A DNA stretch of 25,268 nt from a virus: the IMG/VR virus record IMGVR_UViG_3300037258_000710, positions 1 to 25,268 of that record; one strand, 5' to 3'. Below are positions 3,152-17,148 of the stretch, piece by piece (the first letter of the stretch is position 1; every line of letters starts with the position of its first letter). Both the position numbers and the translations under genes were made by a program. Below the pieces are notes generated by a model. It saw nothing but the letters and a program-made list of their open reading frames with translations, made no database searches and was not told where the DNA came from.

Positions 3152-3226
3152 GCTGAGATAGCTCAACGGTAGAGCAACTCACTCGTAATGAGCAGGTTTT
3201 GGGTTCGAGTCCCAATTTCAGCTCCA
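3152..3226 (+). tRNA. tRNA-Thr (anticodon CGT), CCA encoded
   Basis: A full cloverleaf folds by hand: acceptor GCTGAGA (3152-3158) with TTTCAGC (3216-3222, one G-T pair), D stem GCTC/GAGC (3161-3164/3172-3175), anticodon stem 3177-3181/3189-3193 with loop CTCGTAA (3182-3188), variable loop AGGTT, and T stem TTGGG/CCCAA (3199-3203/3211-3215) with loop TTCGAGT. The anticodon CGT at 3184-3186 reads ACG threonine codons, which are visibly abundant in the surrounding genes. CCA is encoded at 3224-3226. Oddities are an A-C mismatch closing the anticodon stem (3177/3193) and T at the discriminator (3223), where A is usual for bacterial tRNA-Thr. It lies inside the late operon between scaffold and capsid genes. 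Confidence 0.93.
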
Positions 3227-3437
3227 AAAAGTTTTGAGACATCAGAAGCACCGCAACAGAACGCCCAGGGTCGAGATCGCTACCTCGTAAAACGCGCAAA
3301 CCTTCCGGCAAACAGCAGAGACAGAGAGACAGCGATAGAGACATCGCGACCAGCACATCGTGCGGTTCTGGACACGCTCGCGCGTGTAAAAGACCCCGAT
3401 CTGTGTGGATCTTCGTTTTTTCCCCGGAAGGGACACC
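3227..3437 (+). other. Untranslated stretch between tRNA and capsid gene
   Basis: No convincing gene is seen; the + frame open across the tRNA would have to translate the tRNA itself. The stretch holds a purine-rich GAGACAGAGA-type run (about 3316-3330), a small hairpin GCGAT/ATCGC (3332-3336/3343-3347), repeat element A (3353-3394), and just before the capsid ATG a GATC/GATC mini-hairpin followed by a T6 run (about 3402-3422). It therefore looks like a structured leader for the capsid mRNA. Confidence 0.5.
3353..3394 (+). repeat. Double-mini-hairpin intergenic element, copy A
   Basis: Hairpin 1 is GCAC-ATC-GTGC (3353-3363), the linker is GGTTCTGG, hairpin 2 is ACACGC-TCGC-GCGTGT (3372-3387), and the tail is AAAAGAC. 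It lies in the leader of the major capsid gene, 44 nt before its ATG. Copies B to F elsewhere in the window share this layout. Confidence 0.75.
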
Positions 3438-4781
3438 ATGGCGAACCCAGTAACAGAGCTTGCCTACGAGGCGGTTGAACTCGAGGCGTTTGTCGACCAG
3501 ATTCCTGACTATCAGGCGCGATTCAACAAGCTGCAGGCGCGCCTGCTGAAGGATGGGAAGAAGGTTCCCATCTCCAACATGACGACCGCGGGCGGAGTGC
3601 AGCGTCAGCCGCTGCGCGTGCCGTTCCGCGTGCAGGGCGGCGCGGGCATCCAGCAGTTTGCCGCGGACACCGCCGGGACCATCCCGATGTGGCCGCGCGG
3701 CACGGGATCGACCACGGACGCGTTTGTGGCCGCGCCGGTGCGGATTATCAATACCTGCGAGATCTCCAACCTGACCCAGCAGGCGACCGACGGCAAGGAC
3801 CGCGGGCTGGTGAAGGTGAACAAGCAGGAGATGAAGGAGTCTCTGCTCTCGTTCGAGAACGGCATCGAAGGGCTGTTGAACGGCGATGGGTCGGGCACAA
3901 TTGCCGCGATTCCGTCGACGGCGACGGTCAGCTCGAACTCCGGCACGGGCGCGCAGACCTCCTATATCTCGGGGCTGAATACCGTTGCCGGCTTCAGCGA
4001 CCAGCAGATCATCCAGGTGCTGCCTTCGGTCGGCGGAACGACCCGAGGCAACGCGACGATCAGCTTTGTCGATCCCGTGGCGCAAACGCTGTGGTTCTCG
4101 ACAGTGCTGCCTTCGACCGGCGGAGCGACCGCGGTGGGCGATATCCTGGTGGTGCTGGGCGCGACCGGGGCTGCGGGCAGCTCGATCTACGGCAAGAACT
4201 ACTGGATCGCCAACGGCTCGAGCGGCACGATCGCGGGCATCAACAAGGCGCTGTATCCCGGCCGCCTGTCGACCCCGACGATCAACCTGAACTCGACCGG
4301 CTCGATCACCAACGCGATGAGCCAGCGGATCGAGGCATTGATCAGCAGGGCGCGTGGCGACGAGTACGACGAGAACGAGAAGGAGTTCTACTACACCAAC
4401 CCGGCCCAGGGCGTGGCGCTCTCGAACAACTACTACAACGTCGGCATTACCCGTCTGGACGAGGGTGGCGACGAGGTGGTGGACACGGCGAAGAAGTTCA
4501 TGCAGAAGACCTGGGGCGGACGCGAGGTGGTCTACTCGAACACGGCCGACCCAAGCCGCGTGGACCGGTTCAAGCCCAGCGACTGGCATGTAGGCGAGCT
4601 GTTTCAGACGCGCCTGCACGAGTGGACGCCGGGCAACACGATCGCGCCGACGCCGGCGACGACCAGCGGCTACAGCTACTACGACTCGATCACGTTCGGG
4701 TACGAGTGCGGCATGCAGCTGGTGTGCGCTGACCCCAAGGGCCAGTTCTACATCCAGAACGCACCGGTACCGACCATCTAG
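3438..4781 (+). CDS. Probable major capsid (coat) protein
   Basis: The protein has 447 residues, a usual size for an HK97-fold coat protein with an insertion domain. It begins MANPVTELAYEAVELEAF and has a long N-terminal helix, a Thr/Ser/Gly-rich beta region at about 150-280, and a C-terminal part with aromatic beta strands. ATG 3438 is preceded by a strong GGAAGGG with 5-nt spacing. The gene follows the scaffold-like gene, has its own structured leader, and ends at a hairpin element and a strong intrinsic terminator, all fitting a highly expressed coat gene. No signature motif proves the fold; position, length, expression signals and composition carry the call. Confidence 0.75.
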   Translation: MANPVTELAYEAVELEAFVDQIPDYQARFNKLQARLLKDGKKVPISNMTTAGGVQRQPLRVPFRVQGGAGIQQFAADTAGTIPMWPRGTGSTTDAFVAAPVRIINTCEISNLTQQATDGKDRGLVKVNKQEMKESLLSFENGIEGLLNGDGSGTIAAIPSTATVSSNSGTGAQTSYISGLNTVAGFSDQQIIQVLPSVGGTTRGNATISFVDPVAQTLWFSTVLPSTGGATAVGDILVVLGATGAAGSSIYGKNYWIANGSSGTIAGINKALYPGRLSTPTINLNSTGSITNAMSQRIEALISRARGDEYDENEKEFYYTNPAQGVALSNNYYNVGITRLDEGGDEVVDTAKKFMQKTWGGREVVYSNTADPSRVDRFKPSDWHVGELFQTRLHEWTPGNTIAPTPATTSGYSYYDSITFGYECGMQLVCADPKGQFYIQNAPVPTI

Positions 4782-4821
4782 GTGCTTCGCGCGGTTCTCG
4801 CCGCGCTTTGCGCGTAAGGAC
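4782..4821 (+). repeat. Double-mini-hairpin intergenic element, copy B
   Basis: The element starts immediately after the capsid stop codon. Hairpin 1 is GTGC-TTC-GCGC (4782-4792, one T-G pair), the linker is GGTTCTCG, hairpin 2 is CGCGC-TTT-GCGCG (4802-4814), and the tail is TAAGGAC. Confidence 0.75.
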
Positions 4822-4859
4822 CAAACGGTAGCAACCACAACCAAGTGGCAAGGCAGACT

Positions 4860-4891
4860 GGCGGGGGTTGGAAAAACCCCCGCCGATTTTT
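4860..4891 (+). terminator. Strong intrinsic terminator after capsid gene
   Basis: A perfect 10-bp stem GGCGGGGGTT/AACCCCCGCC (4860-4869/4875-4884) encloses a 5-nt loop, followed by GA and T5. It lies 79 nt past the coat stop and would limit read-through into the chaperonin and tail genes. Confidence 0.85.
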
Positions 4892-4892
4892 A

Positions 4893-4925
4893 CACCTCGT
4901 GCGGCCCTCGATGTCGCGCGTAAGA
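4893..4925 (+). repeat. Double-mini-hairpin element, degraded copy F
   Basis: The sequence aligns with copies B and E (CAC-CTC-GTG, then a CGGCCCTCG linker, then a GCGCGTAAG end), but hairpin 2 is poorly preserved. It lies between the terminator and the GroES-like gene. It is probably a decayed copy; the match is weaker than for the others. Confidence 0.4.
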
Positions 4926-4939
4926 AAGAGACATGAGAC

Positions 4940-5335
4940 ATGGGAATGATCGGTGAGATGTTGGCGGATATCCCGGATATCCGTGGCACGGAGGCGGCGG
5001 CGGCGTTCCGGCCGGTGCTCGACCGCATTCTGGTGGAAGATATCCCCGTGGAGGAAAACCGGATCCACATCCCCGGGCAGCCCGACATCCTGCGCTCGGA
5101 GCGATTTCTGAAGAAGTCGGATCTGGGCCGCGTACTGGCGGTAGGGGATGGTGTGCCGATGGGCGGGATCCTGATGCCGATGCCGTACAAAGTCGGCCAG
5201 GTGGTGAAGTGCTCCGAGTACGGCCGCAAGTACATCCTGCTGAGCCCGAACGATGAGCTGGGAACCGCGAAGGGAGAGATTCCGAAGCGGTACCTGATCC
5301 GCGTGGCGGATACGGATGGGGAAGCACTTCGGTGA
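4940..5335 (+). CDS. GroES-like co-chaperonin (Cpn10 fold)
   Basis: This 131-residue protein shows the Cpn10 pattern in order: a first strand FRPVLDRILVED (23-34), a loop region with an IHIP segment (about 38-58) where the GroEL-binding mobile loop is expected, GRVLAVGDG (63-71), YKVGQVVKCSEYG (83-95), and a last strand RYLIRVAD (117-124). GroES subunits form a heptameric lid on GroEL; phage versions such as T4 gp31 adapt the host chaperonin for coat folding. Placement right after the coat gene suits that role. It is longer than GroES (about 97) because of a 20-residue N-terminal extension and a longer loop region. The ATG at 4940 is preceded by AAAGAGACATGAGAC; an ATG at 4946 is also possible. 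Confidence 0.75.
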   Translation: MGMIGEMLADIPDIRGTEAAAAFRPVLDRILVEDIPVEENRIHIPGQPDILRSERFLKKSDLGRVLAVGDGVPMGGILMPMPYKVGQVVKCSEYGRKYILLSPNDELGTAKGEIPKRYLIRVADTDGEALR

Positions 5336-6009
5336 GGCAGTGTCCGGCTGAGTTTCAGGATGCGTTTACGCGGCAGGGTGGCACCAACCAGTACGGCGAG
5401 CCGATCTTCAAGCTGGTGTGGGGTCCGGATGAGACGTCGCGGTCGGGCGGCTACTGGGAGAAGGACGGCTACCTGGGATATCGCGACTTCCAGATCGCGG
5501 GGCCCGACCGGTGCTGGGTGCTGATGATGTGGAAGCCGGCGGAGGCGTTTGGCAGCGACGCGCGTTGGTATTACCACCATCGCGATGAGGCGACCGGCCT
5601 GCAGGAGCTGGGCGAGTATCCCTACAGCGGGCAGTATGTGGTGATCCAGAAGCTGATCCATCGCGAGATGGTGAATGGCGCGATGACGGCGGAGATCCTC
5701 GAGGTGAGCTCGCTGCTGGTGGATGTGCTGTTGCCGGCGGTGCAGTTCTGGCAGGCGCTGAACGAAGAGGAGAAGCTGGCGGCGATCCGGCTGGAGATGG
5801 AGCTGGAGGAGAACGTGGTGCTGGACCAGATGATGGAGGCGAAGGCGGACTGTGCGCCGGCCTGGCGCGGGGCGACGGCGAGCTATACCAACCAGGGCTG
5901 CCGGACGAGCGTGATCGCCAAAAAAGTGGACGTGATGGAACGCGGGATGCGCGATGCTATGCGGATCGCGGCGCGGACGCCGCGCGGCCTGATGCAGCTC
6001 AAGGACTAG
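5332..6009 (+). CDS. Phage protein of unknown function (225 aa)
   Basis: It starts at GTG 5332, overlapping the stop of the GroES-like gene (GTGA), so the two are likely translated together. The N-terminal half is rich in Trp, Tyr and Gly (for example KLVWGPDETSRSGGYWEKDGY), with an aromatic RWYYHHRDEATG segment at about 80-90, suggesting a compact beta-rich domain. The C-terminal third is acidic, then basic helix (EEKLAAIRLEMELEENVV and onward), probably an oligomerisation or partner-binding helix. The family is not recognised. Coupling to a chaperonin gene and position between coat and tail genes suggest a head-completion or assembly role, which is only inference. Confidence 0.8.
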   Translation: MRQCPAEFQDAFTRQGGTNQYGEPIFKLVWGPDETSRSGGYWEKDGYLGYRDFQIAGPDRCWVLMMWKPAEAFGSDARWYYHHRDEATGLQELGEYPYSGQYVVIQKLIHREMVNGAMTAEILEVSSLLVDVLLPAVQFWQALNEEEKLAAIRLEMELEENVVLDQMMEAKADCAPAWRGATASYTNQGCRTSVIAKKVDVMERGMRDAMRIAARTPRGLMQLKD

Positions 6010-6035
6010 GACGACAACCAAAGGCTCTTTTGTTT

Positions 6036-8609
6036 ATGAAGCGATTGCTTATAAAACTCGCGTTTTATGCGGCTGTGCTGTGGGGCGGAGCTGCGTTTGC
6101 CCAACAGATCAACCTGCAGACGCAGGTGTACAAGACCCTGCTGCCGGTGAATGGAGGGTTCGGCATCAACCTGTCGTCGTCGAGCGGATGCCCTCTGCTG
6201 ACCTCGGGGACGTGGACGATCAGCACATCGAACTGCACGGGCGGAGGCAGCGCGCCGGGCGGAGGAAACTATGCCCTGCAATATGCCAATGGAGTGGCGC
6301 TGGGCGGGGCGAACTTTACCGGCGTGGTGATGAACAACGGATCGAGCCAGCCGCCGACGAGCGCGACCGGGGCGCAGATGGGCGGGGTATGGGGATGCGG
6401 GAGCGGCACAGATCTGCTTGAGGCGGGAGGAACCTGCAGCACCGGGTTCACCTTCCCCTCCGGGACGGCAGGGCAGATGCTGCTCTACCAGACCACGGGC
6501 ACGACCGCGACGCCAACGACGATGAGCGGAGACTGCACGCTGGACGATACGGGCGCGATTACCTGCACGAATACGCCCCAAGCCGTAGGCGGTGCGCTGG
6601 CCGAGTATCCCATGCTGGACGGCAGCGGAACTACGGTGACCGACGTCAGCGGGAATGGAAACAACGCCACCTTCGCCAACGGTTCGAATGCACCGAGTTG
6701 GCTGACCTACGGCGTGGCGATCAATAACACTGGCGTCACCTACTCCAATAACGAGTGGATCGATACGCCTCTGACTCAGTTCGGGAGCGTCCTTATTGCG
6801 AGCTGCACACCGACGCTTGCGCTGACCAGCGGGACGGCGACAGGCTATACGCCGGTGGCGTATCCCACCCTGATTGGATCGAACACCGCAGGCGATGGCC
6901 TGTTTCTACTGGGGACCAATATCACGAACACGAGTTATCTGAGCGTGCAACCGACGATCTACGAAAACGGCGTCGCGGCGAGCACATCAAGCACGGGCTA
7001 TTATGCCGGGTGTCATGTGTATGGCTATTCGCTGGGCACCGGCAGCGGTTCGGTCGATCACATCACCATCGACGGCGTGGAGTCTCCGAACTATAGCCTT
7101 CAAGGATCGTCTGCGTCGTCGGTGACGACTGCGGGACACTATGAGATCGGAAGCGCTGGAAGCAGTAACCCTGCCGCGAATAGCTCTCGGCAAGTGGTGA
7201 CCTACGCCGTGTTCTACCCTGCGGGAACGACGCTGACCGTGGCTGAGCTGGCGCAGGAGTCCTCCTATATAGAGCATCAGTTGAGTCTGCGGCCCACTTA
7301 TCCGGTTTACCCTGTGCTCAACAATGCGGCGACCGCGCAGTTTGTGGCTGTCGGCGACTCCCTGACGGCGGGCTACCTGGGCAGCTCGGCGTGGACGGCT
7401 GGACTTTCCTTTAATAACAGCTATACGGTGACCAACTACGGAATCGCCGGTCTGGCCGCACTCGATGTATGCACGATGTCATCGCAACGGTGGGAACAGA
7501 CGACGATCCCTGCGCAGACGACAACGATGTTCTGGGCCGGAACAAACGATATGGCGAACGGTGCATTTACGCCGGCACAGACATGGGCATCGTTGACCCG
7601 GTGCGCGGCGCGGGCAAGGGCGGACGGCATACGCTCGATGGTGGCAACCATGATCGACCGCAGCGGCGAAGACTCGAACAAGAATGCACTGAACGCGCTG
7701 ATTCGGTCGAACTATAAACAGGCTGGGTTCGACTACATGATCGACCTGGCGGCGGTGCCCGGCCTTGGGGCGGATGGAGCGTCAAGCAATACGGACTGCT
7801 TTCAGGGCGATGGCGTCCATCTGACCGGACCCGGTACAGGAACGTGCGGGACGATTACGTCGACGGCACTGAGCGGTTATGGCATCGTGGAGCAGCTGGC
7901 CGAGAACGTGGTGAATACGCTGGACGGTTCGAGCGTCGCGAACCCCACCGTCAGCAGCTCCAATACCTTTGTGATGACCTATGCGGATAACTACACGCTG
8001 CTGACACCGACTGCAGCGGCCACAGCCTCGCTGGTCGATTGTCTGGGGCAGACTAGCCAGAGGACGCTCGTCAACAGCTCCGCACTGTACGGGATCGCGG
8101 TAAGCGGGGTGAACAGCGAAACAATTACCGGGCCGACCACGGTGCCTCCGGGATCGACCATGATCTTTACGCCGGTGCTGACGGGACCGGCGACGGGAGG
8201 ATGTTCCTGGGTGTCCGCAGCTCAGAGTCCGGGGGTGCCAAACCTTGTTCGCTCGCTGGGGTGGTCCTATGGCGATGTGGCGACGTCGCCGCCGCTGACC
8301 ACATCGGAAGTGGGTTACATCACGGTGCCGTTCAGCTGCACGATCACCGGCTGGCACATCATGGCCAACACCGGCACGGTGACGGTGAAGACGGCGCGGA
8401 TCGCGACGGGAGGGACGGCGCTGCCGACGCTGGGATCGAATTCGATCTCGACCTCGGGCGTGTCGCTGAGTACAGGAACGCTGATCAACTCGACAACACT
8501 GACCGACTTTACCTCGACCGCGATCACGGCGGGCGATACGCTGGGCTTCTTCATCACGGCGGTAAGTTCGGCGGCGCAGGTGACCTTCTCGCTGGATTGT
8601 GCCCAATGA
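6036..8609 (+). CDS. Secreted SGNH-hydrolase protein, probable tail fibre or depolymerase
   Basis: The 857-residue protein opens with a clear Sec signal peptide (basic MKRLLIK, hydrophobic core, GAAFA cleavage site at about residue 23). Residues about 30-210 are Gly/Ser/Thr-rich beta structure like tail-fibre stems, and about 210-430 resembles a LamG/concanavalin-type domain. An SGNH/GDSL esterase domain follows: GDSLTAGY with Ser442, Gly469 in YGIAG, AGTND with Asn504, and DGVH with Asp592 and His595. The C-terminus is another beta region. The mature chain has 16 cysteines that tend to pair locally, as in exported proteins. Such domains de-acetylate or cleave esters on surface polysaccharide. 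A weak AAAGG sits 11 nt before this ATG; an in-frame TTG at 6030 has better spacing and is an alternative start. Confidence 0.8.
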   Translation: MKRLLIKLAFYAAVLWGGAAFAQQINLQTQVYKTLLPVNGGFGINLSSSSGCPLLTSGTWTISTSNCTGGGSAPGGGNYALQYANGVALGGANFTGVVMNNGSSQPPTSATGAQMGGVWGCGSGTDLLEAGGTCSTGFTFPSGTAGQMLLYQTTGTTATPTTMSGDCTLDDTGAITCTNTPQAVGGALAEYPMLDGSGTTVTDVSGNGNNATFANGSNAPSWLTYGVAINNTGVTYSNNEWIDTPLTQFGSVLIASCTPTLALTSGTATGYTPVAYPTLIGSNTAGDGLFLLGTNITNTSYLSVQPTIYENGVAASTSSTGYYAGCHVYGYSLGTGSGSVDHITIDGVESPNYSLQGSSASSVTTAGHYEIGSAGSSNPAANSSRQVVTYAVFYPAGTTLTVAELAQESSYIEHQLSLRPTYPVYPVLNNAATAQFVAVGDSLTAGYLGSSAWTAGLSFNNSYTVTNYGIAGLAALDVCTMSSQRWEQTTIPAQTTTMFWAGTNDMANGAFTPAQTWASLTRCAARARADGIRSMVATMIDRSGEDSNKNALNALIRSNYKQAGFDYMIDLAAVPGLGADGASSNTDCFQGDGVHLTGPGTGTCGTITSTALSGYGIVEQLAENVVNTLDGSSVANPTVSSSNTFVMTYADNYTLLTPTAAATASLVDCLGQTSQRTLVNSSALYGIAVSGVNSETITGPTTVPPGSTMIFTPVLTGPATGGCSWVSAAQSPGVPNLVRSLGWSYGDVATSPPLTTSEVGYITVPFSCTITGWHIMANTGTVTVKTARIATGGTALPTLGSNSISTSGVSLSTGTLINSTTLTDFTSTAITAGDTLGFFITAVSSAAQVTFSLDCAQ

Positions 8610-9340
8610 TCCGATATCTTCTTCTCTCGCTGTGTCTCTGCTGTCCGGCGCTGGCGGCGACGATCACGCATGAGCAGGGCGCGCATGCGACCGCGGCGGC
8701 CGCTGCGGTATCGACAGCCATGGGCGCGAGCGTGGGGCTGGGCGACATGGTGCTGGGGTTTTCGAAGACGGCCGCGACGTCGGCGCCGACGGTGGCGTTT
8801 ACCAACGCGGGGACGGCGGCATGTACGTGGCAGCCGGTGGTGGCGGCCCAGTTTGTGGGCTCGCAGGTGGGCTACTCGATCCAGACCTGCGTGGTGACGA
8901 TGGCGGGCACGCTGACCACGACGGCTACGTGGACGGGCGGCAGCGGAAGCCAGACAGATCTCGCGCTGGGCGAGTACAACTCCTCGACGGGATGGACCGT
9001 GGTCGGCTCGAATAACTTTATTGCGGCGACGAGCACGATCTCACCGTCGCCGGTGACCTTCTGCGCGACCGGGACGACGGTGATCCCGATCCCCGCGGGG
9101 TTTCTGGCGGTGGCGGTGTGCGGGCAGTTCAACGTCTCGCAGACCTGGTCTTCGACCGTTGGAGCGTATACCAACCGGACCGACTCCTCGTTCGGGACGA
9201 CAGGATGGTATGACACGATTCCGTCGTCGCTGGCTCCGCAGTCGTTTACGACGACGATCACGAGCGATATCGGCTATGCGGTGATTGTGGCGTTCGCGCC
9301 GAATGGAACGACGGCGCCGGGGAAGGCCCTGATATTTTGA
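8606..9340 (+). CDS. Secreted beta-rich protein of unknown function (244 aa)
   Basis: The ATG overlaps the stop of the SGNH gene (ATGA). The product starts with a Sec signal peptide (MIRYLLLSLCLCCPALAA) and continues as a Thr/Ser/Gly/Val-rich beta protein, probably a jelly-roll or Ig-like fold. The mature part has four cysteines in two likely pairs (the ACTW/QTCV region and the FCAT/AVCG region). Cysteines at residues 12 and 13 lie inside the hydrophobic segment, but no good lipobox is seen. Coupling and shared export features suggest it works with the SGNH protein, perhaps as a fibre partner or as a surface-exposed protein in the host. Confidence 0.75.
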   Translation: MIRYLLLSLCLCCPALAATITHEQGAHATAAAAAVSTAMGASVGLGDMVLGFSKTAATSAPTVAFTNAGTAACTWQPVVAAQFVGSQVGYSIQTCVVTMAGTLTTTATWTGGSGSQTDLALGEYNSSTGWTVVGSNNFIAATSTISPSPVTFCATGTTVIPIPAGFLAVAVCGQFNVSQTWSSTVGAYTNRTDSSFGTTGWYDTIPSSLAPQSFTTTITSDIGYAVIVAFAPNGTTAPGKALIF

Positions 9341-9489
9341 GGCGCGAACAGCTGTTGAAAGACCATCCCGGGTCGGAGGCTGTCCTCGACGACGCACGTA
9401 TCAGCGGTTCGCCGTTACACCTTGTGGCGGCCAGGATCGCAGAACATGAGGCGGCCGCTGTGGACCACAAAGGCGATGCTGCGGACTAA
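9337..9489 (+). CDS. Possible small protein (50 aa), TTG start
   Basis: A TTG at 9337 overlaps the preceding stop (TTGA), and the frame runs 50 codons to TAA at 9487. The product is hydrophilic and predicted helical, with a segment HLVAARIAEHEAAAVDHKGD. It fills the space between the secreted protein and the terminator at 9517 and keeps the coding-like base pattern of its neighbours. No family is recognised and no clear Shine-Dalgarno is seen apart from coupling. Confidence 0.4.
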   Translation: MRREQLLKDHPGSEAVLDDARISGSPLHLVAARIAEHEAAAVDHKGDAAD

Positions 9490-9516
9490 ACATCGGTAGA
9501 GTTGCCACCCAGACAG

Positions 9517-9541
9517 ACCCCTCTTCGGAGGGGTTTTCTAT
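9517..9541 (+). terminator. Intrinsic terminator
   Basis: The stem ACCCCTC/GAGGGGT (9517-9523/9528-9534) encloses a stable TTCG tetraloop and is followed by TTTCTATT. It ends the SGNH/secreted protein unit, just 30 nt before the next gene. Confidence 0.85.
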
Positions 9542-9570
9542 TGGAACCAAACAAGCGAAGGAGAAGAGAC

Positions 9571-10443
9571 ATGGCAGTGTTACATGGTTTTGAAGATCCG
9601 CAGGTGCAATCGAAGATGCAGCAGCTGAACGCAGGGACGTGGGATCCGCGGATCGACCGGAACATGCTGCGCGAGCCGGACCGGATGATCCACGTCTTCT
9701 CGGTCTCGAAGCGGTCGTTTGTGGTGGACCGCGCGCCGCTGTGGGTAAAGCTGCATCTGCGCGGCTGCGGCCAGGGCGACCGCTATGTGGCCGTGGCGCA
9801 CATCCCGGACCCTCTGCTGCAGAAGGTGCACAACACGGAGAACGGCCGTTATCGCGGCGAGGCGCACGACGGCCTGCGCTGCGCGATCGACCTACTGAAC
9901 CCGAACAACCCGACGAATGACCCGGACTGGAACCCGTCGCCGGAGATGGCGGCGCTGTTCGGCTCGAGCCGGGGCTGCGACCTGTTTGCCCAGGGGCTGT
10001 TCCTCTCGCTGAACGAGACGCCGGCCGAGGCGGAGATTATGAAGGCGGAAGAGCGGCGCAACAGCCGCTATCGTGCCCTGATCGCCCAGGCTGACTCGCT
10101 GGAGCAGACCAACCGCAAGGAGCTCGAAGAGTTTCTGCGCGGAGAAGACGGCACCGACTTGAGGATGGCGCTCGACTTCTACGGGGAGCAGCGGGCGTAC
10201 CACAAGCCCATGATCGCGACCAGGAGCTGCCCGAACTGCGGTGAGTCGATCAAGGTGGGCGCTGCCTTCCACAAGAGCGAGGCGCTGGGCATGATCTGCG
10301 TCCTCGACTGGGACCGGGCGATCGCCGCCGGTGTCAAGACCAAGTCCGATGCGCCGCCACTTCGTAGGGTTCTCAACTCTTCGCGTGAAAACGAAGGCAA
10401 GACCCCGAAGAAGCCCGCGGCACGTCCCCGATCTTCGCGGTAG
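9571..10443 (+). CDS. Zinc-ribbon-containing phage protein of unknown function (290 aa)
   Basis: ATG 9571 has an ideal AAGGAG 7 nt upstream, so it is preferred to the in-frame ATG at 9502, which would translate the terminator. The N-terminal two thirds is a mixed alpha/beta domain (MAVLHGFEDPQVQSKMQQ and onward) with a YVAVAHIPDPLLQKVHNTEN segment. A charged helix follows at about 155-200, then a C-terminal knuckle SCPNCGESI with a further Cys in MICVLDW, suggesting a partial zinc ribbon. The last 25 residues are basic and Pro/Ser-rich, probably flexible. The function is unknown; the zinc knuckle and basic tail allow nucleic-acid or partner binding. Confidence 0.8.
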   Translation: MAVLHGFEDPQVQSKMQQLNAGTWDPRIDRNMLREPDRMIHVFSVSKRSFVVDRAPLWVKLHLRGCGQGDRYVAVAHIPDPLLQKVHNTENGRYRGEAHDGLRCAIDLLNPNNPTNDPDWNPSPEMAALFGSSRGCDLFAQGLFLSLNETPAEAEIMKAEERRNSRYRALIAQADSLEQTNRKELEEFLRGEDGTDLRMALDFYGEQRAYHKPMIATRSCPNCGESIKVGAAFHKSEALGMICVLDWDRAIAAGVKTKSDAPPLRRVLNSSRENEGKTPKKPAARPRSSR

Positions 10444-10498
10444 CGGGAGTGGCGGCGGAGTGCTCCATGTCTCGGCATGAAGCCGCCGCCTCCCGCTA
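10441..10498 (+). other. Long hairpin spanning the stop codon
   Basis: The arm TAGCGGGAG-tg-GCGGCGG (10441-10458) pairs with CCGCCGCCTCCCGCTA (10483-10498), giving 16 base pairs with a 2-nt bulge. The 24-nt loop contains a further CATG/CATG inverted pair. The upstream gene's stop codon TAG is the first triplet of the 5' arm. No T-tract follows, so this is not a classic terminator. It may block 3' exonucleases or slow polymerase. Confidence 0.6.
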
Positions 10499-10523
10499 GG
10501 CGGAGCTACTTCGAAAGGATCAC

Positions 10524-10835
10524 ATGGATATCAGTGTAGGAAGAATTGTGCTGTACCAGCTCTCGGATGACGATGCTGTACAGATCAACCGTCGTCGCAC
10601 AACTGGAACATCGATTGCCGAGCGAATCAAGGAAAAGCTCTGGCCTCTCGGAGCACAGGCACACATCGGAAACACAGTCTCCGCTGGAGAAAGCTATCCG
10701 ATGTTGGTAGCACGCGTGTGGTCTCCCGGATACGTCAATGGCCAGGTGTTTTTGGATGGCAACGATGTATTTTGGGCGACCTCTGTAACTGAAGGCGAAC
10801 ACGGCCGCATGTGGGCGTGGCCCCCAAGGGGCTAG
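10524..10835 (+). CDS. Small conserved phage protein (103 aa)
   Basis: The N-terminus MDISVGRIVLYQLSDDDA, a middle NRRRTTG, AQAHIGNTVSAGESYPMLVARVW, GQVFLDGNDVFWATSV and a C-terminal HGRMWAWPPRG match the pattern of a small protein that I recall as widespread in phages and prophages. It is predicted to be a compact beta barrel. Its function is not known. AAAGGA lies 5 nt before the ATG. It sits between the hairpin at 10441 and the adaptor-like gene, 3 nt from the latter. Confidence 0.8.
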   Translation: MDISVGRIVLYQLSDDDAVQINRRRTTGTSIAERIKEKLWPLGAQAHIGNTVSAGESYPMLVARVWSPGYVNGQVFLDGNDVFWATSVTEGEHGRMWAWPPRG

Positions 10836-10838
10836 CGG

Positions 10839-11642
10839 ATGCCGATAGTCTATCCAAACCGGTACCCCAACCTGCAGGGGATGATGGACCTGTTTCGTTC
10901 GCTGGTGAACGATGACGGGGGCGGGCAGGATGGACCGCAGGGCGGCCTGATCGCGACCAACACGGCGCCGTTTACGCTGCCGTTTCTGAATGCATCGATT
11001 CGATGGGTCTACCGGAAGCTGCGCAATATCGGCGATCCGGCCCTGATCATCGACAACTACCTGCTCCTCGGGATTCCAGCGCTAACCGGCCCGAATCCCG
11101 CGGTGCAGGTGAGTCTGGGTTTTCTGGGCTACTTTGACGGTTTCCAGAACCACCCGCAGTGGACGCTGCCCTCCGGGGCGATGGGCATCGACAGGGCATG
11201 GGAGCGGGTGAGCGCAACAGCCCTCGACTTCTTTCCCCTGACCGAAGCCCCGGACGGCCTCGCGCCGCGCCAGCAGACGAACACGATGCGGCAGTATGAG
11301 TGGCGCGGCAATGCGATGTGGATGCCGGGCGCGCTCGAACCGGTCGATCTGCGGCTGCGGTCGAAGATCACGCTGCCGGACATCCTGGGCAGCAGCCTGA
11401 ACTTCGCGACGACGTATGTGCCGATCCTCGACGCGCAAGACGCGATCGTCGACCGGATGATGGTGTACTACGCCAGGCGGTTCGCACCGGAGCAGCTGCC
11501 GGCGGCGGATATGAGTTCGAAGGAGTCGATCTTCGAGCTGCAGCAGGAGACCGCGCGCCAGCAGCAGAGGAAGCAGGACCGGCGCGTGGACTTCGGCGAA
11601 GAGGCAGTGGGCAACTTCGCCGCATGGAACAACGATCTGTAG
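10839..11642 (+). CDS. Putative tail adaptor / head-tail connector protein
   Basis: The protein has 267 residues, with AAGGGG 7 nt before the ATG. The N-terminus (MPIVYPNRYPNLQGMMDLFRSLV) is helical, the middle has Trp/Pro-rich segments (NHPQWTLPSG, MWMPGALEP), and the C-terminal part is helical (DAIVDRMMVYYARRFAPEQ) and then highly charged and Gln-rich. Podoviruses place an adaptor (T7 gp11, P22 gp4) shortly before the large nozzle/tail protein, and this gene sits in that position. It is longer than those relatives. No diagnostic motif is present. Confidence 0.5.
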   Translation: MPIVYPNRYPNLQGMMDLFRSLVNDDGGGQDGPQGGLIATNTAPFTLPFLNASIRWVYRKLRNIGDPALIIDNYLLLGIPALTGPNPAVQVSLGFLGYFDGFQNHPQWTLPSGAMGIDRAWERVSATALDFFPLTEAPDGLAPRQQTNTMRQYEWRGNAMWMPGALEPVDLRLRSKITLPDILGSSLNFATTYVPILDAQDAIVDRMMVYYARRFAPEQLPAADMSSKESIFELQQETARQQQRKQDRRVDFGEEAVGNFAAWNNDL

Positions 11643-11677
11643 CACTTCGTGCCGTTCTCGACCGCTGCGCGGTGAAA
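11642..11677 (+). repeat. Double-mini-hairpin intergenic element, copy C
   Basis: It begins at the last base of the upstream stop codon. Hairpin 1 is GCAC-TTC-GTGC (11642-11652), the linker is CGTTCTCG, hairpin 2 is ACCGC-TGC-GCGGT (11661-11673), and the tail is GAAA. Confidence 0.75.
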
Positions 11678-11729
11678 CCTCAAAAAACAACTACTGAACG
11701 TAGGGCGAGAAGCCCGAATCACCCCAACC

Positions 11730-11751
11730 ACGGCCGAGGAGGCCGTTTCTT
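11730..11751 (+). promoter_or_regulatory. Terminator-like hairpin presenting the ribosome binding site in its loop
   Basis: ACGGCC/GGCCGT (11730-11735/11741-11746) encloses the loop GAGGA, and TTTCTT runs directly into the ATG at 11752. The only Shine-Dalgarno-like sequence for that gene is the loop itself. The site could act as a weak terminator and as a structured initiation region. Confidence 0.5.
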
Positions 11752-12114
11752 ATGGCGACCGCAACCGTAACCCTGACCGTCAACGCCTATCCCAACGGGG
11801 TAGACAACACGCAGCGCCGCCAGACCTTGGACGGCGTGCTGGCCCTGAATACGGGCGGCCTCTATGCCACCGACGGCGTGCCGTTGACTTGGACGTTTCT
11901 GAGCGAAGAGGGTGGAGCGTTTATTCCGGACTTCGAGACGGCTGTGCCGGTCTACACCGACATCAAGACGCTCGAAGGCGGGCTGTACGCGTACTGGTAC
12001 GACACCGTGCATAAGACGCTGCGGATCTCGCTGGCCGGCGACGAGCTGGAAGATGGTGACGCGATCACGGCGGACACCATCGGCTTCCACGCCGAGTTCG
12101 CGCGGGGCTTCTAA
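11752..12114 (+). CDS. Small beta-rich structural protein of unknown function (120 aa)
   Basis: The protein begins MATATVTLTVNAYPNGVDN and alternates beta strands with acidic turns (for example SLAGDELEDGDAITADTIGF). No signal peptide or cysteine is seen, and the composition suggests an Ig-like or jelly-roll domain of the kind found in capsid decoration or tail proteins. It stops 1 nt before the TTG start of the 1318-residue tail protein, so the two are probably coupled and the product may be its accessory. The exact role is not known. Confidence 0.7.
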   Translation: MATATVTLTVNAYPNGVDNTQRRQTLDGVLALNTGGLYATDGVPLTWTFLSEEGGAFIPDFETAVPVYTDIKTLEGGLYAYWYDTVHKTLRISLAGDELEDGDAITADTIGFHAEFARGF

Positions 12115-12115
12115 G

Positions 12116-15100
12116 TTGCACAACCTCACGCAGGCTGACCAGGCTGTACCGCTTGAGACGTATGGCGGTCTGGTAAGCCTGGCGCGGCCGGACAACGTTC
12201 CTGAAGGCGCGAGTCCCCGGAACAACGACATGGACTACCTGATCGGCTCGGCGCAGACGCGCCAGCCGCTTGAGAATGTCTACTCGTTCGGGGACTCGAG
12301 CACGGGACCGAATGGAGGGAGCGACGCCGCGAACATCACGATCACGGGGAACGCCTGGGCGAACCCTGCGAGCGTCCTGACCGACGATGGAAGCTATGCG
12401 GCGTGTACCCCCTCGACGGGATCGGACGGGCTGGATGTGACGGCGTTCAGCTTCGACCTGGCGGCGACCGCATCGCCCACCGGGATCACGGTGCCGGTGA
12501 AGGGGTATGCGACCTCGGCAGTGACCCTGACGGCGCAGCTGCTGCTGAATGGCGTGGTGGTGGGGCTGCCCAAGTCGCTGGCCCTGCCGACGGCTCCGGG
12601 AACGATCACCTTTGGCGGCCCGACCGATCTGTGGGGGACCGCGCTGGCCTTCTCCAGCCTGAACAATGCGACCTTCGGGGTGCGGTTTACGTCCTCGTCG
12701 GCGTTCCCGATGGCGCAGGCGCTGCTGGGCTATGCGAGCGTGACGGTCGCGCGTGCGAATGCGCTGGCCAACTTCGACTTTATTACGACGTTTGTGGCGC
12801 AGGACGGCAGCGTGAAGAACCTGAGCCTGGACGCGGACGGGAATTTCTGGGTGGAGGATGTGACCAACGATCCCGGGGTGCTGAACCTGGCCTTCGACGG
12901 GATCCGGCCCAACAGCTTTGCCAGCGGGGTGAACGGCCCGGACGTGGAGTATCTGGCGTTCAACGATCTCTCCGCCGGCTGCGACGTGCCGCGGCAGTAC
13001 ACGCCGAAGTGGACGGACAGGATCTCGCAGGTGGGTCCGGGGGGCGCGCCGGTCTTCTCGGCCAGCTCAGCCTCGGCGACCACATACGACATTACGTCGA
13101 TCACGCAGCCGGGAGCGAAGAGCTGGGGGTTCAGCTACTTTCTGCAATCGACCGGGCCGGGCTCGAACACGGCCGGCAACGTGGTGACGGTGTACTACTC
13201 GGACTCGACCGTGGGGGCGGCGGACGCGGACCTGGTGAATGCGTTCAACTCCGGCAACCCGGTGTATCTGTACTTCAGCTTTACCGGCGGCCCGGCCGAG
13301 CAGGGGCCGCTGACGGTGCGGGTGACCTCGGTGGGGGAGGGCAGCCCTCCGGGGCAGCCACGGCAGTTCTACTACTTCACCTACGTGGCGCTGACCAGCG
13401 CGTATGTGTTTTACGCGGGCAGCGGACATCCGGGCTACACGGCCAACTACCAGCGGACGCTGGCGACGATGACGACGGCCGTCCCGGTGCCGCAGCTGAC
13501 GGTGGGGACGAGCGCGGTGGTGACGGGCAGCTCGGTGACGTCGTGGGACTCGACCTGGCCGATTACCCAGACTTTGAACTCGGGCGCGATGGCGATCACG
13601 CAGACCTCGCTGACGGCGGGGGTGGCGACCTACAGCTATGCGGTGCTCTCGGGCGCGAACCCGGTGGCGGGGCAGCTGGCGACGATTACGAACTGCCTGA
13701 ACGCCAACGGCATGCTGAACGTGGTGAACAACGCGATCGCGAGTGTGAGCGGAACGAATATCGGGACGTTCACGATCGAAGGCCTCCCGGCGGCGACGGA
13801 CTATCCGGCCGAGGCGGAGGATGGGCAGGCCACGACGGCGGGCACGGAGTTTACCTTCGAGCCCGGGCTGCTGACGCTGGGCACCGACACGTCGCCGATC
13901 TACGGGAATGCGACCGGTGGCGAGATCGTGGTGACCGGGGTGGGACAGTTCGTCGCGGCCGGCACCAAGCAGGGCGTGGTCTTCTTCATCACGCGGAACG
14001 GCTACTGGACGGCGCCGAGCGCGCCGGTGACGTTTACCGTGCCGGACAACACGACAGCCATCCTGGCGTCGCAGATCCCGATTGGGCCCCCGAACGTGAT
14101 TGCGCGGGGGATCGCGTTCACGGAGAGTGGGCAGAACGGCGTGCCCGGAGCGAACTTCTTCACCATCCCGACGCCGGTGGACTATATCGCCGAGAACGTG
14201 ACGTATACGTCGACCGCGCTGCTGATCAACGACAACACCTCGACGACGGCGACCTTCTTCTTTACCGACTCTGTGCTGCTGAACGCCGAGGCGATCGACA
14301 TCCAGGGGAACAACCTGTTCAACCTGATCGAGCTGGGCAGCCCGGGGTGGATCGTCAAGTACGACTCGCGCAACTTCTACGGTCTGTGCCAGAACAAGAT
14401 CCAGAACTTCACCAACCTGAGCTTCGACGGCGGATACAACCCGGGGGCCACGCTGAAGCCGCTGGGATGGACGATTGCCGATATCTATGGCCGGCTGCTG
14501 GTGTCGCCGGTCTTCGGCAACTCCTACTACATCGAGAACACGAGCGGAGGGACGCTGGGGCAGGCCGGCCTGATCTCGGAGACCGCCTACCAGGATGCGT
14601 ACCAGCAACCGATCCTGAATGCGCATACCACGTATAGCGTGCGGGTGACGGCGCGGATCCCGAGCGGGAACACGACCGGCGGCCTGGTCGCGGACCTGAC
14701 GGCGAACGGAATTACCTATGGGACATTTACGCTGGCGTTTGCCGGAATGTCGACGACGATGGCGACGTATACGGGGACGCTGCTGACGAACGAGTTTGCC
14801 ACGGTGCCGGCGGGGCTGCTGCTGAGCGTGTATGCCTCGGCGATCGCCGATGGGGCGGATGTGGAGCTGGACCGGATCGAGGTGTTTCCGACGGCGATCC
14901 CGGTGCTGGCGACGACCGTCTTCGGCAGCTACGCGAACGACCTGGAGAGCGTGGACGCGATCACCGGGCCGGGGCAGTTTATCAGCGAGAACCAGCAGCC
15001 GGTAAACGGCGCGGTGGTGATGTACGACACGTTCTACGCGCTGAAGGCTGGGTCGATGTACTCCTGGCAATCGAGCGCGAACCTGGAGCCGGCACAGTGG

Positions 15101-16072
15101 AACGAGCCGGAGGTGGCGCAGCGGGCCGGAGCCTGCGGGGTGAATGCGTACGACTTTGGCGAGCAGTGGATCGTGGAGGCCTGCCGGAACGGGCTGTACC
15201 TGTTCGAAGGCGGGCAGCCGGGCAAGATCATGCAGGAGATCTTCCAGGTGTGGGAGGCGATCAACTGGAATGCGGGCAAGAGCATCTGGGTGAGGAACGA
15301 TGTGACCAACCGGAGGCTGTTGGTGGGGGTGCCGCTGCCGACGCCGAACTTCTGGCTGCCGGATGCGCCGGCGAACCCGGCTCCGGAGCTGCCCAACGTG
15401 ATCCTGATGATGAACTACCAGGGCTGCGAGACGGGCGAGGCGATCAAGCAGTCGATGCAGATGCACGAGACGATGTTCGGCAGCCTGAATGCCGTGGATA
15501 TGCGGCGGAAGTGGTCGATCTGGCAGATCGCCAGCCCGTACGCCAACCTGGTGAGCACGAGCGGACAGGTAGGATTCAGCGCGGGCGAGGTGAACCTGCT
15601 GGACGCGGAGTTGCGGTTCTGCAACGGGATCGCCAGCTCCAAGGTGTACCGGCTGAACACGCAGCTGGGCCCGACGGAGATCCCGATGGACGATGGAGCG
15701 CCGATCGCATCGCTCTATACGACCTACGGGTATGTGAATACGAGCAAGGTGGCGCAGATGCCGCTGCTGGGCCTGTTCCGCAAGCTGTGGGGCTACATGA
15801 CCCACCAGATCTCCGGTGCGGGCACGCTGAATGTGCGCTTGCTGCCGAATACGCTGCTGGGACCGGGCGACTCGACCGCGGGCTACTACCCATGGACGCT
15901 GCCGGGTGGGTTTGTGTTGACCGACCCGTGCACGCAGATCCACGAGGCTCCGCTGAACTTTGCGGCGACGCGGACGTTTGTGGAGTTCTCGACGACCGGG
16001 CGGATGGATCTCTCGAATCTGGTGATGGTGGGGAAGAAGCATCCGCACAACCAGATCACGGGGCAACGGTGA
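12116..16072 (+). CDS. Large tail protein, nozzle-like (1318 aa)
   Basis: This is the longest gene in the window. The N-terminus (YGGLVSLARPDNVPEGASPRNND) matches the opening of podovirus tail-tube/nozzle proteins that announces a repeat-built propeller. Residues about 60-950 are Thr/Ser/Gly/Val-rich beta modules. The C-terminal 350 residues contain propeller-like blades with short recurring motifs: GAVVMYDTFYALKAG, QWIVEACRNGLYLFEGG, NRRLLVGVPLP and NVILMMNYQG. Such proteins (T7 gp12, P22 gp10 class) form the lower tail. At 1318 residues it is much longer than those, suggesting inserted beta domains. The TTG at 12116, with GGGG about 8 nt upstream, is chosen because it lies just after the preceding stop and keeps the conserved N-terminus; ATG 12231 is the next alternative. 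Confidence 0.65.
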   Translation: MHNLTQADQAVPLETYGGLVSLARPDNVPEGASPRNNDMDYLIGSAQTRQPLENVYSFGDSSTGPNGGSDAANITITGNAWANPASVLTDDGSYAACTPSTGSDGLDVTAFSFDLAATASPTGITVPVKGYATSAVTLTAQLLLNGVVVGLPKSLALPTAPGTITFGGPTDLWGTALAFSSLNNATFGVRFTSSSAFPMAQALLGYASVTVARANALANFDFITTFVAQDGSVKNLSLDADGNFWVEDVTNDPGVLNLAFDGIRPNSFASGVNGPDVEYLAFNDLSAGCDVPRQYTPKWTDRISQVGPGGAPVFSASSASATTYDITSITQPGAKSWGFSYFLQSTGPGSNTAGNVVTVYYSDSTVGAADADLVNAFNSGNPVYLYFSFTGGPAEQGPLTVRVTSVGEGSPPGQPRQFYYFTYVALTSAYVFYAGSGHPGYTANYQRTLATMTTAVPVPQLTVGTSAVVTGSSVTSWDSTWPITQTLNSGAMAITQTSLTAGVATYSYAVLSGANPVAGQLATITNCLNANGMLNVVNNAIASVSGTNIGTFTIEGLPAATDYPAEAEDGQATTAGTEFTFEPGLLTLGTDTSPIYGNATGGEIVVTGVGQFVAAGTKQGVVFFITRNGYWTAPSAPVTFTVPDNTTAILASQIPIGPPNVIARGIAFTESGQNGVPGANFFTIPTPVDYIAENVTYTSTALLINDNTSTTATFFFTDSVLLNAEAIDIQGNNLFNLIELGSPGWIVKYDSRNFYGLCQNKIQNFTNLSFDGGYNPGATLKPLGWTIADIYGRLLVSPVFGNSYYIENTSGGTLGQAGLISETAYQDAYQQPILNAHTTYSVRVTARIPSGNTTGGLVADLTANGITYGTFTLAFAGMSTTMATYTGTLLTNEFATVPAGLLLSVYASAIADGADVELDRIEVFPTAIPVLATTVFGSYANDLESVDAITGPGQFISENQQPVNGAVVMYDTFYALKAGSMYSWQSSANLEPAQWNEPEVAQRAGACGVNAYDFGEQWIVEACRNGLYLFEGGQPGKIMQEIFQVWEAINWNAGKSIWVRNDVTNRRLLVGVPLPTPNFWLPDAPANPAPELPNVILMMNYQGCETGEAIKQSMQMHETMFGSLNAVDMRRKWSIWQIASPYANLVSTSGQVGFSAGEVNLLDAELRFCNGIASSKVYRLNTQLGPTEIPMDDGAPIASLYTTYGYVNTSKVAQMPLLGLFRKLWGYMTHQISGAGTLNVRLLPNTLLGPGDSTAGYYPWTLPGGFVLTDPCTQIHEAPLNFAATRTFVEFSTTGRMDLSNLVMVGKKHPHNQITGQR

Positions 16073-16109
16073 GCACTATGAGCCGTGAGTATATGAGTAC
16101 GGAAGTAAG

Positions 16110-16694
16110 ATGGCTGACCTAAACGGGGGCGAGTTGCTGGCGCAGATCACGAACATGTGGCCGAAGCTGGGGATCCTGCTGGGCAAGCATGAGAGCGCGA
16201 TCAACACGGTGGCGCTGAACGCGGCGGTGGCGACGAGCGGCGAGCTGAATGCGCCGGCGCGTCCGGGGCAGGTAAATGTCAAGGTGGCGGGTGAGATCGC
16301 GCATGTGACGATCGACGATCCGCAGGAGCTGCAGAGGGGCGCGCAGTATCACCTGGAGATCGCCGACAATCCTCAGTTTTCGGCGCCGCATGTGGTGCAC
16401 CTGGGCAGCACGCGGGGACACTTCATGAATCTGCCGACGAACACCGACGACGGGACGCCGCACACCTGGCACGCGCGGGCCTACAGCCAGTACCAGGGCT
16501 CGCAGCCGAGCGCGTACACGTACTTCGGCGGGGATGCGCCGGCGGGGTTCCAGATGACCGGGGCGACGAACCTGACGCCGCTGGCGTCGACGGGAAGCGG
16601 CACGGCGAGCAATAACGGGCAGCAGGGCGGATCGGGGCTGGGCAAGGTGCTGTTCCGGGGCGCGCCGGCGCCGAAGAGGAATGTCGGTGGTTAG
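16110..16694 (+). CDS. Ig/fibronectin-like virion protein (194 aa)
   Basis: A short helical N-terminus (ELLAQITNMWPKLGILLGKHESAIN) is followed by a single beta-sandwich domain at about 48-145 with fibronectin-III-like features: a proline-rich entry (NAPARPGQVNVKV), YHLEIADNPQF, and HTWHARAYSQYQG near its end. The last 45 residues are Gly/Ser/Asn-rich and flexible with a basic end. GGAAG lies 4 nt before the ATG. It follows the large tail protein and is probably a tail accessory or host-binding protein. The FN3 call is from strand pattern only. Confidence 0.6.
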   Translation: MADLNGGELLAQITNMWPKLGILLGKHESAINTVALNAAVATSGELNAPARPGQVNVKVAGEIAHVTIDDPQELQRGAQYHLEIADNPQFSAPHVVHLGSTRGHFMNLPTNTDDGTPHTWHARAYSQYQGSQPSAYTYFGGDAPAGFQMTGATNLTPLASTGSGTASNNGQQGGSGLGKVLFRGAPAPKRNVGG

Positions 16695-16697
16695 AGA

Positions 16698-16727
16698 GCA
16701 CATCGTGCCGTTCTCGACGCTTCGCGT
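16698..16727 (+). repeat. Double-mini-hairpin intergenic element, copy D
   Basis: It begins 3 nt after the stop at 16692-16694. Hairpin 1 is GCAC-ATC-GTGC (16698-16708), the linker is CGTTCTCG, and hairpin 2 is ACGC-TTC-GCGT (16717-16727). It ends 9 nt before the acetyltransferase ATG, so it may overlap the ribosome footprint. Confidence 0.75.
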
Positions 16728-16736
16728 GGCGACTGG

Positions 16737-17123
16737 ATGATTCGGGATATGGCGGGAACGGACTATGCACGGCTGCGGCGGATGCATGCGCGGCAGGGGA
16801 TCGATTATGCGTTTCCGGATCTCGACTCGCCGTTGTTCTTTTGCAGGAAGGTGCTGGTGGTGGATGGAGAGATCCGCGCCGCGCTGGTTTTGAGGTTGTG
16901 TGCCGAGACATCGCTGTTGCTGGAGAGCAGCTGCGGGCCGCAGGAAAAGATGGCCGCCATGCGGGAGTTGCAGCAGGCGGTGCTGAAGGAGGCCTACGAC
17001 CGGGGACTGGACGAGATCCATGCGGCCATCCCGGAGATTGGCTTCGACAGGCGGTTACGCCAGCTGGGGTGGGAGAGAGACCGCTCGGGCTGGAATCTTT
17101 GGTCTCGCTCAACTACTTCGTAG
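16737..17123 (+). CDS. GNAT-family N-acetyltransferase-like protein (128 aa)
   Basis: The pattern fits a compact GNAT fold: MIRDMAGTDYARLRRMHARQG as beta1/alpha1, FFCRKVLVVDGEIRAALVLRL as the beta2-beta3 hairpin, a central helix EKMAAMRELQQAVLKEAYDRG, IHAAIPEIGFDRRLRQLGWERD covering beta5 and alpha4, and a C-terminal Trp-rich strand. The acetyl-CoA-binding pyrophosphate loop is not canonical (no clear Q/RxxGxG/A), so activity is uncertain. I recall similar proteins in tail regions of other phages; the target is not known. The stop codon TAG lies inside hairpin 1 of repeat copy E. Only a weak ribosome site is visible. Confidence 0.65.
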   Translation: MIRDMAGTDYARLRRMHARQGIDYAFPDLDSPLFFCRKVLVVDGEIRAALVLRLCAETSLLLESSCGPQEKMAAMRELQQAVLKEAYDRGLDEIHAAIPEIGFDRRLRQLGWERDRSGWNLWSRSTTS

Positions 17124-17148
17124 CGTTCTCGACGCTGCGCGTAAAGAC
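17113..17148 (+). repeat. Double-mini-hairpin intergenic element, copy E
   Basis: Hairpin 1 is CTAC-TTC-GTAG (17113-17123), whose last three bases are the acetyltransferase stop codon. The linker is CGTTCTCG, hairpin 2 is ACGC-TGC-GCGT (17132-17142), and the tail is AAAGAC. Hairpin 1 differs from copies C and D on both arms yet still pairs. Confidence 0.75.

Follow-up and report, generated by a model that had tools for sequence, protein, structure and literature searches.

A recurrent pattern of abutment on stop codons, together with a second element of the same layout, points to a putative, as yet undescribed RNA control element that has also been acquired by phages. The unit, here called motif 1, is ~32-48 nt long and consists of hairpin 1 (4-5 bp, UUC or AUC triloop), followed by a nearly invariant single-stranded linker, SGUUCUSG, and then by hairpin 2 (4-8 bp); its structure is conserved, and its placement is strand-specific. 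In our best explanation, which we regard as evenly poised and whose mechanism we infer, motif 1 would represent dispersed REP-like repeats whose copies at a stop serve as RNA elements of the 3' UTR, linked to translation termination or to decay of the mRNA. The original prediction, which started from the double hairpins of a single phage, had missed that the anchoring to stop codons is exact, that orthologous genes of the hosts keep the element, that a second family can take its place and that sister phages have empty sites.

We analysed a virus record of 25,268 bases (the window), covering both strands where stated, with a covariance model, R1, based on 30 copies from phages and hosts. R1 finds six places in the window at 25.6-50.5 bits, all others reaching at most ~11 (Table 1). 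The five copies predicted as clear are confirmed at their positions, with E-values of 8e-12 to 2e-5 that, like the 4e-6 of a further copy within a gene (10354, also cited as 10359), are rough. This in-gene copy had been overlooked, so that the predicted count of five good copies and one decayed copy falls short by one. It also departs from the claim that all copies are intergenic or begin at a stop codon, as does the 17113 copy, which has the stop inside the 3' arm of hairpin 1. Placement on one strand holds: an exact two-hairpin descriptor matches at four start positions on the plus strand and none on the minus strand (~0.15 per shuffled window), and the 17-mer core with at most 3 mismatches has 19 matches in the window against 5 expected. 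The 3353 copy reads GCAC AUC GUGC, then GGUUCUGG, then ACACGC/GCGUGU, then AAAAGAC; the (A)AAGAC tail claimed to follow hairpin 2 is present among the copies, but loosely kept. At 11642, the first base of hairpin 1 is the G of the upstream gene's TAG. The degraded copy proposed at 4893 is statistically invisible to R1, yet it proves to be a decayed motif-1 copy because L349, a phage 94% identical, has an intact copy in the same place, past the same terminator.

Table 1. Motif-1 copies in the window, with the position at which the R1 match starts.
Feature	Position	Strand	Context	R1 match start	R1 bits
motif-1 copy	3353..3394	+	interval between tRNA gene and coat-gene start, away from any stop codon	3350	39.6
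motif-1 copy	4782..4821	+	abuts TAG stop (4779-4781) of the 3438-4781 gene	4779	25.6
decayed motif-1 copy	4886..4927	+	directly 3' of terminator hairpin (4859-4885)		4.4
motif-1-like copy	10354..10395	+	in 3' part of gene ending at 10443; weak pairing; repeat D7		28
motif-1 copy	11642..11677	+	abuts TAG stop of gene 10839-11642	11639	43.2
motif-1 copy	16698..16727	+	3 nt past TAG stop of gene 16110-16694, 9 nt ahead of next ATG	16695	48.9
motif-1 copy	17113..17148	+	overlaps end of gene 16737-17123	17110	50.5

Pfam and PHROGs supply no name for the phage genes bearing motif 1; the coat gene, so called in the original prediction, has no significant match in either, and we refer to it as the coat-position gene. 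Just 5' of it lies a tRNA gene (3152-3223); the eight loci of related phages that were scanned contain no such gene. Right after it, window positions 4940-5335 give a weak GroES/Cpn10 match of 19.5 bits, below the cut-off; motif elements are also found at host groES genes.

The claim that stem bases change while pairing is kept is borne out by covariation, both over the whole set and at orthologous sites. Scored on pairing and covariation over all copies, the motif-1 structure beats every shuffle and all slid controls, although the whole-set alignments were fitted to R1 and hence favour structure. The counts from orthologous sites are less affected: here, 47 cells of hairpin 1 carry double (compensatory) changes and 4 are broken, both directions counted, and the linker is kept while about half of the flank has changed. 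Some of these double changes could be due to the exchange of one copy of the family for another. The energetics give a different picture. Only three of the five window copies have two hairpins as their fold of lowest energy, and the folding z-scores of these three are ~0; the 4782 and 17113 copies fold better as one long hairpin; and in 13 of 70 host copies the two-hairpin fold lies at least 2 kcal/mol above the minimum. Such folds, and the shortness of the stems, count against our best explanation. Thermodynamic z-scores were thus discarded as structural support, being uninformative or, for some copies, contrary. As such, the double-hairpin design that had been predicted is a putative fold whose case rests on covariation, not on energy. 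Pairing of the loop with the linker or tail was not supported on inspection. Conservation of the linker suggests recognition by a factor, though it is partly a matter of ascertainment, since the seed patterns included the linker.

Further copies of the kind that the original prediction proposed to search for turned up in phages, both related and unrelated, as well as in genomes of Acidobacteria. Scanning viral contigs with a pattern yielded true copies, with stems changed yet paired, in some ten contigs of other phages (L005, L010, L013, L014, L022, L031, L032, L034, L042 and L047), many first matches being chance matches in coding sequence. Of 29 stretches from the genome pattern scan, 27 belong to Granulicella, Terriglobus, Edaphobacter or other Acidobacteria; matches in Olsenella and Methylobacterium were rejected as chance coding matches without hairpin 2. 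The R1 family resides chiefly in soil Acidobacteria of the Acidobacteriaceae (Terriglobus, Granulicella, Edaphobacter), where four genomes hold 16-43 copies each (21-43 in G001, G038, G102 and G187), a few others 1-2 and most none; these counts are lower bounds, as the larger genome searches scored 20-30 candidates per genome. R1 matches occur in at least 7 of 200 genomes of the family and at least 9 of 297 of the phylum, a patchiness that speaks against an essential function. In Terriglobus roseus (NC_018014, G001), 16 of 21 copies are on the minus strand, and the interval from 0.72 to 2.70 Mb holds no copy; GC skew in 20 sampled stretches revealed no clear pattern relating this strand bias to the replichores. 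In G038, G102 and G187, motif 1 also sits after GGGGCTTGACAG within a dispersed non-coding repeat of ~265-490 nt (loci L199, L205, L207, L211, L212, L219, L230, L237-L239, L247, L255, L262, L263, L275 and L286), which has no open frame in common and was rejected as a gene.

Host copies are very often anchored to a stop codon, starting no more than a base or two from it. Based on gene calls from a simple, purpose-written codon-usage gene finder, as the genomes came without annotation, the loop of hairpin 1 lies 3-5 nt past the stop of an upstream same-sense gene in 75 of 168 distinct host copies, a spacing that random intergenic positions show in 0.5% of cases; in about nine further copies, a hairpin 1 that is half duplicated lies at the stop. 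The distances from stop to linker and from stop to hairpin 2 are 11-13 and 18-20 nt, respectively. TAG predominates at the abutting copies (TAG 59, TAA 13, TGA 3; background 172/136/75; P 6e-8), and of the 23 copies whose own 5' arm counts 3 nt, 22 follow a TAG, its G completing hairpin 1. Among 79 evaluable copies away from stops, eight carry a stop-like triplet (TAG, TAA or TGA) at this edge, and the base before TAG varies; hence, the stop is mostly external to the element, and TAG is no mere terminal tag as in GTAG REPs. Counting against our best explanation, about half of the host copies lie away from stops, in tandem repeats, in the larger non-coding repeat or at convergent intergenic sites. 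Hairpins placed past stop codons might recall intrinsic terminators, the least probable of all readings considered here: a run of at least four T follows hairpin 2 in only one of 70 host copies, as the original prediction had anticipated in dismissing this role, copies occur within operons, and true terminators adjoin copies, as at 4859-4885 of the window.

The 84 upstream proteins at or near whose stops motif 1 lies fall into 51 groups, and 22 of these gene families have the element at the corresponding stop of two or more loci, which are mostly orthologs in different species. The upstream genes are often core genes, such as rpoC, rpsH, tuf, groES, dnaK, frr and gyrB; NCBIfam names the proteins RpoC, S8, S14, L6, L30, S21, EF-Tu, ribosome recycling factor, GroES, DnaK, GyrB, DnaB, Ffh, Der, GatC, peptide deformylase, FabF, FabH and FolE. 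Host copies at core genes, unlike phage copies, persist across species. Many copies stand between genes of a single operon, for instance in operons for ribosomal proteins and in the late operon of the phage; of the 84 near-stop copies, 57 are followed by a downstream sense gene. This arrangement, and a conserved single-stranded linker flanked by two hairpins, is what one would expect of an mRNA processing or stability element in which the linker is cut to part the cistrons, and the hairpins guard the new 3' and 5' ends. We consider such a role on its own improbable, as processing alone leaves the abutment within 0-2 nt of the stop unexplained, 26 of the 84 copies stand at operon ends, and 4-bp hairpins are weak exonuclease barriers. 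Separately from motif 1, the interval between rpsH (S8) and rplF (L6) in loci L289-L318 contains a conserved stretch, GGCTGCAGTGGAACG...CGGGACTCGCAAGCC, whose arms are able to pair. It was followed in 27 Acidobacteriaceae loci with a located L6 start, matches no Rfam family in the ten loci compared, and is possibly an undescribed ribosomal-protein leader.

Comparison of rpsH in 30 relatives revealed that many genes without motif 1 carry another element directly past the stop. This motif 2, composed of GGAC-UGGCC-GUCC, then AGGCGNAC, then GCGCC-UUC-GGCGC, is unrelated to motif 1 in sequence and shares its layout and position, in other Acidobacteriaceae. With a model of its own, R2, motif 2 proves to be dispersed as well (35 copies in G042, 22 in G073, none in G001 and G102), and 36 of 83 copies abut a stop. 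Its pairs covary strongly; moreover, loop GCC pairs with linker GGC, and coordinated swaps to CGC/GCG indicate a pseudoknot. In five orthologous genes, namely rpoC, rpsH, tuf, groES and a 476-aa glutamine-synthetase-like gene, one lineage has motif 1 and another motif 2 at the same stop. Leaving out S8, the seed of R2, four families are shared against 0.27 expected (P ~2e-4), where the expectation assumes an even draw from ~4000 genes and is generous, since highly expressed genes may attract both motifs. A pseudoknot directly past the stop, and a frame that stays open through most elements, could suggest a readthrough or recoding signal as in MuLV or SECIS. We give this idea very little credence: all three stops are used, the register relative to the stop differs among orthologs (e.g. 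S8) such that no peptide is conserved, and openness past the element is about that of chance.

In phages, motif 1 comes and goes. Related phages with coat-position proteins 82-94% identical mostly lack it: L349, L350 and L354 have a different sequence at the 3353 site, L349-L354 have no element at the stop of the coat-position gene (4782), and the site past the nearby terminator, intact in L349 and decayed in the window, is without a copy in L354. The 11642 site after gene 10839 is empty in L351-L354, and both the 16698 site, in the 16110/16737 interval, and the 17113 site, after gene 16737, are empty in L352. These empty sites imply that phage copies are gained and lost fast. Downstream of gene 9571, L349 has a full element (GGAGCCACTTCGTGGCGTTCTCGAC...); window positions 10480-10505 have GGAGCTACTTCGAAAGG, possibly a deleted motif-1 copy.

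Such turnover is also what purely selfish REP-like DNA would display, its hairpin being kept for mobilization by a Y1/HUH-type single-strand endonuclease and its stop adjacency reflecting tolerated or targeted insertion. The patchy distribution, the tandem and partial copies, the larger repeats containing motif 1 and the empty sites in sister phages all fit this explanation, as does the location of REPs elsewhere downstream of genes (PMC3733652). We hold it to be unlikely, although a somewhat better candidate than processing alone: conservation at orthologous stops and the exchange of motifs 1 and 2 at the same genes would not be expected, and motif 1 does not flank the 30 Y1_Tnp loci found in 10 genomes that carry the element. 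One of them has a copy nearby, which lies at the stop of an unrelated neighbour gene that itself has a copy in another genome. Counting against our own best explanation, no transposase or reader protein for motif 1 was identified.

A ribosome with a stop codon in its A site covers roughly the first 11-13 nt past the stop. Hairpin 1, with its 11-13 nt, would fill exactly the stretch under the terminating ribosome and form only when the stop is free, whereas the linker would lie at the front of the ribosome, with hairpin 2 further downstream. We thus propose that motif 1, as a stop-anchored RNA element, may read the occupancy of the stop codon and set the outcome after termination, i.e., release and recycling versus stalling, and cleavage or protection of the mRNA. 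The most likely route would be recognition of the linker combined with trimming or blocking of the 3' end. The element would spread by some copy mechanism, copies at core-gene stops being kept and phages gaining and losing theirs quickly. In a broader and more tentative form, to which we attach a little less than even confidence, Acidobacteriaceae may own a general stop-anchored RNA device of at least two unrelated designs that swap at the same core genes, are read at termination by a dedicated factor or the ribosome itself, and are carried into phage late operons.

If this holds, a phylum with little described RNA biology would use 3'-UTR structures set to the nucleotide at core-gene stops, with two unrelated designs filling the same sites. 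It would offer a testable system for the fate of mRNA after translation termination and for REP-like repeats turning regulatory, in which phages with ~92-94% identical coat-position proteins provide natural pairs with and without motif 1.

Our literature search found no description of the motif-1 family, and none of 4227 Rfam models matched the element at E up to 5 in the window and up to 0.5 in ten host loci. The two interpretations of the original prediction, an RNA element or a mobile REP-like repeat, are each partly supported, as features of both occur side by side: the repeats are dispersed and REP-like, but strict REP membership does not apply. Many dispersed extragenic copies per genome are found in G001, G038, G102 and G187, most genomes having none. 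The unpaired GTAG or CGTC tag at the hairpin end is lacking, and no tyrosine transposase (RAYT) gene has the repeat on its flanks in the 10 genomes compared. GTAG REPs (PMC3733652) likewise lie downstream of genes, and some supply the TAG stop to the flanking gene; GTAG and CGTC REPs differ in having tagged hairpins or single stems of 8-9 bp (CGTC), against 4-5 bp in hairpin 1. The phyla of that catalogue exclude Acidobacteria, for which it describes only TIR-type repeats with tyrosine transposases (PMC3733652). Class 3 TnpA-Y1 repeats of Acidobacteria (PMC6006769) resemble motif 1 in their atypical hairpins and high copy number; they carry a foot CnGA beside the transposase gene, whereas motif 1 is unlinked to Y1 genes and has USGA or CUSG ahead of hairpin 2, where we had looked for that foot. 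REP/BIME sequences near stops in E. coli (Liang, Rudd and Deutscher 2015, as cited in PMC12306157) are likewise short, dispersed, palindromic, extragenic and downstream of genes. Motif 1 differs from them in its two unlike mini-hairpins, a fixed linker, exact stop abutment, sense orientation, orthologous core-gene conservation and 20-45 copies per genome, with neither a GTAG tag nor a linked RAYT. Functionally, the nearest precedent is provided by those REPs of E. coli that lie no more than 15 nt from a stop, which stall ribosomes and lower translation (PMC12306157, citing Liang 2015); the motif-1 and motif-2 copies that abut stops lie within this distance.
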